Shown: positions 58,312 to 61,054 of the stretch, in pieces
How positions within the stretch are numbered: position 1 is the first letter of the stretch
Layout of the letters: each line of letters begins with the position of its first letter
Source of the DNA: Synechococcus sp. CS-1329
GTDB lineage: Bacteria > Cyanobacteriota > Cyanobacteriia > PCC-6307 > Cyanobiaceae
DNA: 64,000 bases
Assembly: GCF_025128055.1 (NCBI RefSeq)
Contig: NZ_JAHLYS010000015.1
Span: forward strand, 1-64,000
Direction: 5' to 3'
Notes under the pieces: generated by a model
Told to the model about the DNA's origin: nothing
What the model saw: only the letters and a program-made list of their open reading frames with translations
Database searches by the model: none
Made by a program: the position numbers and the translations under genes

Positions 58312-58896
58312 TCAGGCCGTGGCCATCGCCGTCTGGTAGGCGGGCCGGGCGCGGGTGGCCTCGATCGTGGCCTGAACCGCCGGGTAGGGGCTCAGGTCCA
58401 GCTGGGGAAAAAAGATCGGCAGGTAGGCCAGATGGGCGTTCACGGCGCAGTCGGCCACACCCCAGGAGGCGCCGATCAGGGGGGTCGCTTCAGCCAGGCG
58501 TTGATCGAGGGCGGCCATCAGCCGCGGAAACTCCCGCTCCCGTGCCGATTCCACGAACAGGGCGGTGGCCAGGGTGGCGTTGGCGAACAGCACCCACTGC
58601 TCGGCCAGCGCCCGCTGCTCGGGGCTGCTGAATTCCTGGCCGTAGCGATCCGCCAGGTAGAGCAGGATCGCGCCGCTCTCGAACAGGCGCAGCGGTCCTC
58701 CCTGGGGGGCCACGGCGCTGGAGTCCTCCAGGGCCGGCACCTTGCCGAAGGGGTTGATCGCCAGGAAGGCCGGCTGCCGGTGCTCATCGGCCTGCATGTC
58801 AAGCAGGCGCCAGCTGTAGGCGATCCCCTTTTCGGCCAGGTACCAGCGGGGCATGGAGGCCCTGGAGCGGGGGCCGCCGTAAAGAGTCAAGGCCAT
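58312..58896 (-). CDS. glutathione S-transferase family protein
   Basis: 194 residues. The N-terminal thioredoxin-like domain (LTLYGGPRSRASMPRWYLAEKGIAYSW ... NPFGKVPALED ... LFESGAILLYLADRYG) and an all-alpha C-terminal domain. The serine of PRSRAS is the probable catalytic residue. It conjugates or reduces substrates with glutathione. It ends 12 bases upstream of the pdeM start on the same strand, so they may be co-transcribed. Confidence 0.9.
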   Translation of the reverse strand: MALTLYGGPRSRASMPRWYLAEKGIAYSWRLLDMQADEHRQPAFLAINPFGKVPALEDSSAVAPQGGPLRLFESGAILLYLADRYGQEFSSPEQRALAEQWVLFANATLATALFVESAREREFPRLMAALDQRLAEATPLIGASWGVADCAVNAHLAYLPIFFPQLDLSPYPAVQATIEATRARPAYQTAMATA

Positions 58897-58927
58897 GGCT
58901 GGGTGCGCTGGAAATCCTCCCCGCAGA

Positions 58928-61054
58928 ATGGGACCTCATGGGCAGGAAGCGCCAGTGGCTGACAGCCTGCTCCGTCTGGCGCCCCTGTTGGTGGGGCGCG
59001 CCCGCCGCGGCATCGTCGGCTCCAGCCGCTATGCCCACACCCTGCGCGAGGCGGTGCGCACCGCCTCGAACGACCCGCAGGCTGGTCCGCTGCTGATCAC
59101 CGGCGAGCCGGGGCTGGAGAAGGACAACATCGCCGCCCTGATCCACTTCGGCTCCCCCGCCCGCCGCCAGCTGTTGCTGCGGCTGGATGGGGCGCTGCTG
59201 CGGGGCGATGGCGCCGAGCTGTTCGCTGCCGCCGGCCGCAGCGGTGAGGGCTCGCTGCTGGAGAACCCCGAGGTGGGCGGGGTGCTGATCGACAAGCTCG
59301 ATCGGGTCGATCCCCAGCTGTTGCCGGCCCTGATGGAGCTGGCCAGCACAGGCCGCTGGCAGGCGCCGGGCCCCGCCACAGCCCCCCGCCATTTCCCCGG
59401 CCGGGTGTTCTTCACCACCGAGGCGGTGGTGCCTGGTTTTGAGCGGGCCTGCACGTTGATCCGGGTGCCGCCGCTGCGGGTGCGGCGCCAGGACCTGGGC
59501 GACTGGTTGCGCTACGACCTGCGCCTCAAGAGCCGGGCCCTGGGCTGGCCCACAGCGCCGGTGGCGGGGGCGGAGCTGGTCCGCCGGCTGCAGACCCGCG
59601 ATTTCCCCGGCAACGTGCGCGAGCTCGAGGATCTGGTGGAGCGGGCCCTGCGCCAGCTGCCGGTGCCGGCCGCGGCCGAGCCGCCGCTGGAGCTGCCCGA
59701 AGACGTCTTCTGGCTCTCTTCCCGTCAGAGCCGCCCCCGCTTCGATCTCTGGCGCTGGAAACCATCGCTGCGCCGCTGGATGCGCTCACCGCGCCTCTGG
59801 AACACCCTGCTCTTCGCTCTGGTGAGCTGGGTGTTCGTGCTGGTGAACCTCTGGCTGTGGCTGGGTCCCCAGGACCGCGCCCACAACGGGGCGCTCAACC
59901 TCTTCTGGGCCTGGTGGTGGCCCCTGATCCTGCTGGGCTATCCCCTGGTGGGCCGCCTCTGGTGTTCCTTCTGCCCGTTCATGGTCTGGGGTGAGATCAG
60001 CCAGCGGCTGGCGGCAGCCATGGGTTGGCAGCCCTCCCGCTGGCCCAGGGGTGAGACCGACCGCTGGGCAGCGCCGGCCCTGGCCGCCGGTTTCGCCGCG
60101 ATCCTTCTCTGGGAGGAGCTGGCGGATCTGGAGAACAGCGCCCGCCTGAGCAGTGCCCTGCTGCTGCTGATCACCGCCGGGGCCGTGATCGGTTCGTTGC
60201 GCTTCGAGAAGCGCTTCTGGTGCCGCTATCTCTGCCCGGTGGGGGGGATGAATGGCCTGTTCGCCAAGCTCTCGGTGCTGGAGCTGCGCGCCCAGGTGGG
60301 CACCTGCAGCGGCAGCTGCAGCACCTATGCCTGCTTCAAGGGTGGTCCTGCCGATGGCGAGGGTCTGGCCACGGCGGGCTGTCCGCTGGGCACCCACCCC
60401 GCCCACCTGGAAGACAACCGCAACTGCGTGCTCTGCCTCACCTGTGTCCAGGCCTGCCCGCACCGCTCCGTGCAGCTGAGCCTGCGGCCCCCTGCCGCCG
60501 ATCTGCAGCGGGAGATGGCCCCACCCGACGGTGAGGCGGGTCTGATCCTGGTGCTGGCCGGGGGGGTCTGCCTCAAGTTCTGGGATCGCCTGCTGGGCGG
60601 TCTGCCCCTGGCCCCTGAGAGCCTGCAGGAGGGCCCCCTGCTGCCGCGCCTGGCCTTTGCGCTGCTGGCCCTGGCGCTGCCCTCGGCCCTGGCCCTGGTG
60701 GCACTCCGGCTGGGCAGTTGGCTGACGCCACCGGCCCGGGCCGCCCGGCGCCTGCGCCTGGGGCTCTATGGCCTGCTGCCCCTGCTCTGGGCCCTGCTGC
60801 TGGCGCGGCACCTGCCGGTGGGGATGGCGGAGGCGGGCCGGTTGCTGCTGGTCAGCTTCAGGCAGCCCCTGCCCAGCTGGAGCGCCGATCAGCACGTGAT
60901 CGCCTTCTGCCAGAGCCTGGTGCTGCTGGTGGGGGTGGGCGGCTCGCTGGTGCTGCTGCGCCGCCTGCTGCTGAACAGCCGGGCGGCCCTGTGGTGGGGC
61001 AGCGCCGTGGCCGTGGTGCTGGGGGCTGGTGGGCGCTGGCTGGTGGCGGGGTAG
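58928..61054 (+). CDS. NtrC-type AAA domain fused to membrane polyferredoxin
   Basis: About 708 residues from ATG 58928 (GTG 58955 possible). Residues 1-250 form a sigma-54-activator-like AAA domain, but the Walker A is degenerate (GEPGLEKD instead of GxxGTGKE) and GAFTGA is absent; the arginine-finger-side RDFPGNVRELEDLVERAL remains. Then come several membrane helices with NapH-like cysteine motifs (CSFCPF, CRYLCPVGGMN), CSGSCSTYACFKG and a 4Fe-4S motif CVLCLTCVQACPHR. Probably a membrane electron-transfer protein with a sensory or assembly domain. Confidence 0.85.
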   Translation: MGPHGQEAPVADSLLRLAPLLVGRARRGIVGSSRYAHTLREAVRTASNDPQAGPLLITGEPGLEKDNIAALIHFGSPARRQLLLRLDGALLRGDGAELFAAAGRSGEGSLLENPEVGGVLIDKLDRVDPQLLPALMELASTGRWQAPGPATAPRHFPGRVFFTTEAVVPGFERACTLIRVPPLRVRRQDLGDWLRYDLRLKSRALGWPTAPVAGAELVRRLQTRDFPGNVRELEDLVERALRQLPVPAAAEPPLELPEDVFWLSSRQSRPRFDLWRWKPSLRRWMRSPRLWNTLLFALVSWVFVLVNLWLWLGPQDRAHNGALNLFWAWWWPLILLGYPLVGRLWCSFCPFMVWGEISQRLAAAMGWQPSRWPRGETDRWAAPALAAGFAAILLWEELADLENSARLSSALLLLITAGAVIGSLRFEKRFWCRYLCPVGGMNGLFAKLSVLELRAQVGTCSGSCSTYACFKGGPADGEGLATAGCPLGTHPAHLEDNRNCVLCLTCVQACPHRSVQLSLRPPAADLQREMAPPDGEAGLILVLAGGVCLKFWDRLLGGLPLAPESLQEGPLLPRLAFALLALALPSALALVALRLGSWLTPPARAARRLRLGLYGLLPLLWALLLARHLPVGMAEAGRLLLVSFRQPLPSWSADQHVIAFCQSLVLLVGVGGSLVLLRRLLLNSRAALWWGSAVAVVLGAGGRWLVAG

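Follow-up and report, generated by a model that had tools for sequence, protein, structure and literature searches.

An NtrC-type AAA domain fused to a membrane iron–sulfur protein in cyanobacteria, with a sister subfamily often found beside cysteine synthase

NapH, NosR and RdhC have in common a four-helix membrane module with two CX3CP motifs, according to the part of PMC5928378 that deals with these proteins, where quinol oxidation is proposed in NapH, the NapH cysteine motifs are reported to affect the membrane attachment of NapG, and RdhC is noted as first proposed to be a regulator. For the NtrC-type activators, the survey passages of Francke et al. (2011, PMC3162934) report that sigma-54 and its activators were absent from all 29 cyanobacteria sequenced by 2011 and trace many false activator calls to neglect of the GAFTGA motif. 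Two cyanobacterial exceptions to the absence of sigma-54 are named in a passage of a 2025 paper (PMC12316311). A protein of Synechocystis, slr0593, is entered as a 'cAMP binding membrane protein' in a table of PMC3516471.

The window analysed here is a stretch of 64,000 nucleotides from Synechococcus sp. CS-1329 (contig NZ_JAHLYS010000015.1, positions 1 to 64,000), the source genome being 2.58 Mb in 49 contigs. Its forward strand carries a 719-aa ORF (58895–61054) in which an NtrC-type AAA domain is joined to a nine-helix membrane iron–sulfur protein. No paper on this fusion was found in the open-licence PMC literature, and slr0593 was found there in one paper only. slr0593 may belong to the fusion family, and a possible tie through it is the one pointer to high light or iron limitation, the conditions proposed in the initial annotation.

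Anatomy and conservation of the fusion

An NtrC-like AAA domain on a membrane iron–sulfur protein had been proposed for this locus by an initial annotation, and the ORF anatomy, model matches, a 22-row family profile and the predicted fold all bear this out. The gene had been placed at 58928–61054; the stop at 61054 was correct, whereas 58928 is the second in-frame ATG, the first being 58895. Either ATG could serve as the start, since the alignments of homologues to the window protein begin near residue 24. Because an opposite-strand ORF (58312–58896) begins over the first ATG, 58928 may be the true start. Among named relatives, those nearest to the protein (89–93% identity) belong to Cyanobium and Synechococcus.

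The membrane iron–sulfur half spans residues 285–719 (59747–61051, + strand) and has about nine predicted transmembrane helices by alignment and structure models. Twelve cysteines were invariant in 22/22 aligned rows and were kept in 73–75 of 75 fusion proteins. Four of them form two membrane motifs, C357-x2-C360-P (residues 357–360, 59963–59974) and C443-x3-C447-P (residues 443–447, 60221–60235), and the CX2CP and CX3CP forms were likewise present in all 22 rows. The other eight (C471, C475, C480, C496, C511, C514, C517 and C521; 60305–60457) lie in a ferredoxin-like segment recognized by Pfam and alignment, which would hold two [4Fe-4S] clusters and whose first half is irregular. The remaining C-terminal part (residues 545–719, 60527–61051), a five-helix membrane region in the models, matched no family in the Pfam scan; all of these features are on the + strand.

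Among model matches to this half, Fer4_5 was found at 1.5e-7, and the NapH/MauN model TIGR02163 aligned over residues 351–528 at 2.6e-11, with 43.5 bits, far below its cut-off of 213.05. The structure models consist of four helices, a low-confidence iron–sulfur segment (residues 467–513) and then helix five onward. A fold search with the membrane half alone gave nothing under E 0.001, the best Z of 6.3 being to unrelated chains. By its sequence features the membrane half resembles the NapH/NosR proteins. What the initial annotation called 'polyferredoxin modules' is better described as a single membrane domain of the NapH kind, carrying the 12 conserved cysteines, together with five further helices. 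Stand-alone relatives of about 450 aa that share this layout, encoded by a plasmid of Deinococcus ficus and by plasmids of haloarchaea, show that the membrane half occurs without the AAA part. Directly upstream of the Deinococcus stand-alone protein lies a gene for a 308-aa histidine-rich protein with no Pfam match (L159:6928–7854), a neighbour that may point to a metal link.

The AAA domain and the absence of sigma-54

The N-terminal domain with its lid (residues about 37–255, 59003–59659, + strand) was identified as NtrC-type, and as a predicted pseudo-ATPase, from Pfam and NtrC-family models, the family profile and the predicted fold. In the window protein both Pfam families scored below their cut-offs (Sigma54_activat 14.8 bits against 20.2; AAA lid 25.6 against 27), and relatives with a longer architecture exceeded the Pfam cut-off for the AAA domain. 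The NtrC-family models NtrX, PspF, TyrR and NorR matched at 1.5e-11 (NtrX) to 3.8e-9, and the hits to solved NtrC-family chains had 1.3e-8 at best. The 22-row profile matched the NifA AAA domain at 6.2e-35, VpsR, the second best, at 2e-33 and FlrC at 5e-32. The predicted domain aligned with FleQ, DmpR and NtrX over 228–231 residues (Z 18.9–19.2, rmsd 3.1–3.7, best five ranks), the values for FleQ, DmpR and NtrC1 being Z about 19 and rmsd 3.1–3.2, and matches of the whole model in the fold search were limited to the AAA domain. The agreement of NtrC-family models, solved chains, NifA profile and fold alignment places the match far beyond chance. The FPGNVRELEDL stretch noted initially in the N-terminal part is present at residues 237–247 (59603–59635, + strand) in the sequence and alignments; in NtrC-type lids this is the sensor II region. 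Within it, position 242 is arginine in 42/45 picocyanobacterial rows, but in only 9/16 rows of the main subfamily.

The nucleotide-binding motifs are altered. In place of the Walker A pattern GxxGxGK the window protein reads GEPGLEK, within GEPGLEKDN (residues 70–78, 59102–59128, + strand). The description of a degenerate Walker A was thus accurate, and had missed that the altered form is itself strongly conserved: in the picocyanobacterial alignment, GEPGL(E/G/A)KD, the residues GEPGL, K76 and D77 are invariant in 45/45 rows, with residue 75 being E in 40, G in four and A in one. Across 30 loci of the main subfamily, to which the window protein belongs, the form GEPxxxKDN was universal (GEPGLEKDN in 23, GEPGLGKDN in five, GEPSSGKDN and GEPGLDKDN in one each). 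The aligned Walker B, GVLIDKL (residues 129–135, 59279–59299, + strand), is degenerate and has lost its second acidic residue, the protein reading GGVLIDK where DE would be expected; residue 133 was N in 11, D in four and S in one of 16 main-subfamily rows. The GAFTGA loop is the part that contacts sigma-54; a GAFTGA-like motif was found in 0/75 fusion proteins examined and the corresponding segment is absent from the window protein, as the initial annotation had also observed. The AAA part in the window's subfamily probably no longer hydrolyses ATP.

Rates of change were compared between the two halves. Against the five closest relatives compared, dN/dS was 0.18–0.25 for the AAA part and 0.05–0.08 for the membrane iron–sulfur part; against five more distant picocyanobacterial rows the values were 0.45–0.57 and 0.10–0.20. 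By dN, the AAA part changes about two to five times faster. The AAA module is kept and is under purifying selection among close relatives, yet changes faster than the membrane part; no stretch of the module is better kept than the P-loop-like motif.

The source genome had no match to PF00309, a model that was positive in 4/14 control genomes, and none to PF04552, which exceeded its cut-off in 0/98 Cyanobacteriota genomes. This is consistent with the initial premise of a lineage without RpoN. A normal sigma-54 activator was ruled out, with no sigma-54 found and GAFTGA in 0/75 proteins. No Pfam family of the C-terminal DNA-binding helix-turn-helix type was found in the window protein up to E 1, the membrane half taking its place. 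The repurposing of an NtrC-type domain on a redox-type protein, suggested at the outset, is supported by the lack of sigma-54 matches, the altered P-loop and the missing GAFTGA, and the module is best read from its sequence as a kept domain with another job rather than a sigma-54 activator. It would represent one concrete second life for NtrC-type domains in cyanobacteria, which as a rule are without sigma-54.

Distribution, and linkage of the sister subfamily to cysK and sulfide genes

A homologue was present in 202/289 Cyanobacteriia genomes and 101/129 genera (E 1e-60), so the fusion is not a local oddity but extends across most of Cyanobacteriia, which the initial annotation had missed along with the CRP-like domain and the sister subfamily described below; in 13 of the 202 the sole hit was weaker than 1e-130, within the sister range, and these genomes may lack a window-type copy. 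A small-genome genus (g2, 1.6–1.7 Mb) had no homologue at E 1e-60 in its 10 rows among those listed. Window-type copies with internal stops or splits were seen in three near-complete picocyanobacterial genomes (L013 in G348, L020 in G342 and L021 in G257). Given these broken copies and the 87/289 genomes without a homologue, the window-type gene is dispensable.

Outside the window's family, main-subfamily proteins mostly run to about 850 aa and have a CRP-like domain at the N-terminus; cNMP_binding exceeded its Pfam cut-off in 5/7 fusion proteins scanned besides the window's. This domain is absent from the window protein in the Pfam scan and from the window's family. A phosphate-binding arginine motif is usual in CRP-like domains. 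At the aligned columns this arginine was found in 0/43 sister rows and in at most 3/13 main rows having the region, which makes cyclic-nucleotide binding doubtful. The tree, which includes long Deinococcus and haloarchaeal branches, recovered two groups at 100/100, a sister subfamily of 11 rows and the five rows of the window's family, without settling the order of the other rows.

The sister subfamily, a new finding, shares 32–35% identity with the window protein, has a normal P-loop and often lies beside cysteine synthase among sulfide-handling genes. It was found in 43/388 genomes (E 1e-200), one of them of the window's genus, and not in the window's genome. Its P-loop reads GxGKT or GxGKI in 44/45 loci, the remaining one giving no match, and the Walker B glutamate is lost, with N in 6/6 rows. 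From these motifs, the sister head may still bind ATP.

Neighbouring genes were compared between 45 sister loci and 30 of the 31 main-subfamily loci, the one left out being L064, where no fusion ORF was found; L163, which lies on the plasmid that also carries L205, was set aside as well. Key names came from model matches and record annotation, with TauE being our own reading of one ORF that had no NCBIfam match. The cysteine synthase gene cysK was the next same-strand gene in 23 of the 42 sister loci with a next gene, 15 of these lying 4–37 bases from the fusion. It was within two genes in 29/45 sister loci against 0/30 main loci, and other sulfur genes (sulfide:quinone oxidoreductase, rhodanese, a metallo-beta-lactamase-fold protein like sulfur dioxygenases, TauE, DsrE and Hdr-like) in 19/45 against 0/30. 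These loci are not independent of one another, as several share a genus, and labelling relied on reference genes taken from the same islands. Likewise petC, psbA and the cytochrome bd gene cydB occurred in 10, 9 and 7 of the 45 sister loci against 0, 1 and 0 of the 30. The main subfamily had nothing conserved among its neighbours beyond local synteny. The linkage suggests that the sister serves sulfide or low-oxygen conditions. Related gene sets are described elsewhere: petC2 adjoining sqr is tied to low oxygen in a passage of PMC11304991, and in Synechococcus PCC 7002 polysulfide is reported to induce pdo, rhod, tauE and cysK2 (PMC12466478).

Several islands, two of them on plasmids (L162 and L205; also L033, L038, L206, L213, L214 and L215), combine varying sets of sulfide:quinone oxidoreductase, rhodanese, extra petC, psbA, cysK and the sister fusion, and it is possible that they represent a partly plasmid-borne, mobile sulfide kit. 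In one cyanobacterial genus, HdrA-, HdrB- and HdrC-like genes stand beside a sulfide:quinone oxidoreductase-like gene (L038:2830–7399 and L039). The uncharacterised families DUF3365, DUF4079 and DUF2214 recur near the sister fusion in 10, 5 and 6 of the 45 loci (L036, L038 and the L196–L229 sets). One sister fusion, L162:7392–10106, is publicly annotated as a 'nitrogen assimilation regulatory protein', in all likelihood wrongly and on account of the AAA domain; a repurposed domain accounts for labels of this kind on fusion genes.

Proposed function and comparison with known systems

A redox or sulfide role for the fusion family is suggested by the sister copy, whose switch motif is intact and which often lies among sulfide-handling genes. 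A membrane electron-transfer protein with a former transcription-activator head offers the most economical mechanism, and gating, sensing or scaffolding are each conceivable for that head. Our favoured reading, to which we give an even chance, is a NapH/NosR-type electron-transfer protein regulated by the repurposed cytosolic AAA head. The membrane cysteine motifs and ferredoxin-like clusters would form the electron path linking the quinone pool with a cytosolic partner, and the AAA part would act as a self-assembly or nucleotide-state switch setting when the membrane part works. The head of the main copy looks locked, and the sister protein would play this part when sulfide is present or oxygen is low. 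Against this reading, the main subfamily has no conserved neighbours, so that the sulfide link comes from a sister at 32–35% identity; the gene is dispensable, its AAA dN/dS reaches 0.57 and the iron–sulfur segment is modelled at low confidence; and no solved structure matched the membrane model convincingly, while the CRP-like arginine is mostly missing.

A more elaborate form is speculative and on balance unlikely to hold in full. A sigma-54 activator module would have become the head of a redox enzyme and split in two, giving a widespread copy with a locked P-loop, a constant structural switch, and a sulfide/low-oxygen copy with a working one, the latter made together with cysteine synthase and gating by its nucleotide state the flow of electrons between the cytosol and sulfide-fed quinone. 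If true, this copy would be an AAA-gated electron-transfer protein. The fusion and cysK in any case add an uncharacterised gene pair to the cyanobacterial sulfide and low-oxygen islands, one that bears on coping with sulfide or on the switch to sulfide-dependent photosynthesis and for which a knock-out is feasible in culturable strains.

Somewhat less probable again, though a serious alternative, is that the protein is a sensor rather than an enzyme, its membrane clusters reading redox state or sulfide and its AAA/CRP-like part signalling to a partner protein by contact. Both cytosolic domains are regulatory in origin, the sister copies lie within sulfide and low-oxygen islands, and RdhC, of the same membrane superfamily, is the protein first proposed as a regulator in the passage cited above (PMC5928378). 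A sensor would nevertheless have no output domain left, given that no helix-turn-helix was found in the Pfam scan, and no known partner, and nine helices and 12 cysteines exceed its needs.

NtrC-type AAA domains form rings, and a ring or scaffold of this type could help to mature or place an electron-transfer complex. We regard such an assembly factor, one of the roles suggested in the initial annotation, as improbable. The effect of the NapH cysteine motifs on NapG attachment (same part of PMC5928378) and the extra petC, psbA and cydB genes in sister loci are in its favour, but the altered Walker A and B make ATP-driven remodelling unlikely in the window's subfamily, and no main-subfamily neighbour suggests a client. 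Poorer still are the prospects of a relic, in which the picocyanobacterial AAA part, fast-changing and with the CRP-like domain gone, is vestigial and the membrane half alone matters. The sub-threshold Pfam scores of the window domain, the dN/dS of up to 0.57 against distant rows and the broken copies would fit, but the P-loop-like motif is the best-preserved part (GEPGL, K and D in 45/45), which is not what a relic would show, and dN/dS is about 0.2 among close relatives. A VpsR-like role in transcription without sigma-54 is very improbable, since despite the second-best profile match and a similar Walker B no DNA-binding domain was found in the Pfam scan and a nine-helix membrane part anchors the protein.

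Compared with described proteins, the label of slr0593 fits a CRP-like plus membrane layout, a likeness of name. The stand-alone 4Fe-4S proteins of Deinococcus ficus (L159) and haloarchaea (L160 and L161) align over the membrane half including the C-terminal helices, but are without an AAA or CRP-like part, and the haloarchaeal pair also lacks several cysteines. VpsR, an NtrC-type protein without the standard sigma-54 loop, is a soluble transcription regulator, whereas the window protein is a membrane iron–sulfur protein; VpsR and the fusion family have in common an N in place of D in Walker B (GTLLLND in VpsR, GTLLLNN in the fusion family). The enhancer-binding proteins NtrC, NifA, NtrX and FleQ share the AAA and lid fold and the FPGNVREL region, from which the fusion differs in being membrane-bound, in its altered Walker A and B, and in having no GAFTGA, no DNA-binding domain found and no sigma-54 in the genome. 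NapH/MauN (TIGR02163), NosR and RdhC share with it a membrane module with two cysteine–proline motifs followed by ferredoxin-like clusters, which in the fusion are putative. Relative to the NapH type, the fusion has CX2CP rather than CX3CP as its first motif, five extra C-terminal helices, and an AAA domain and, in most members, a CRP-like domain in front.
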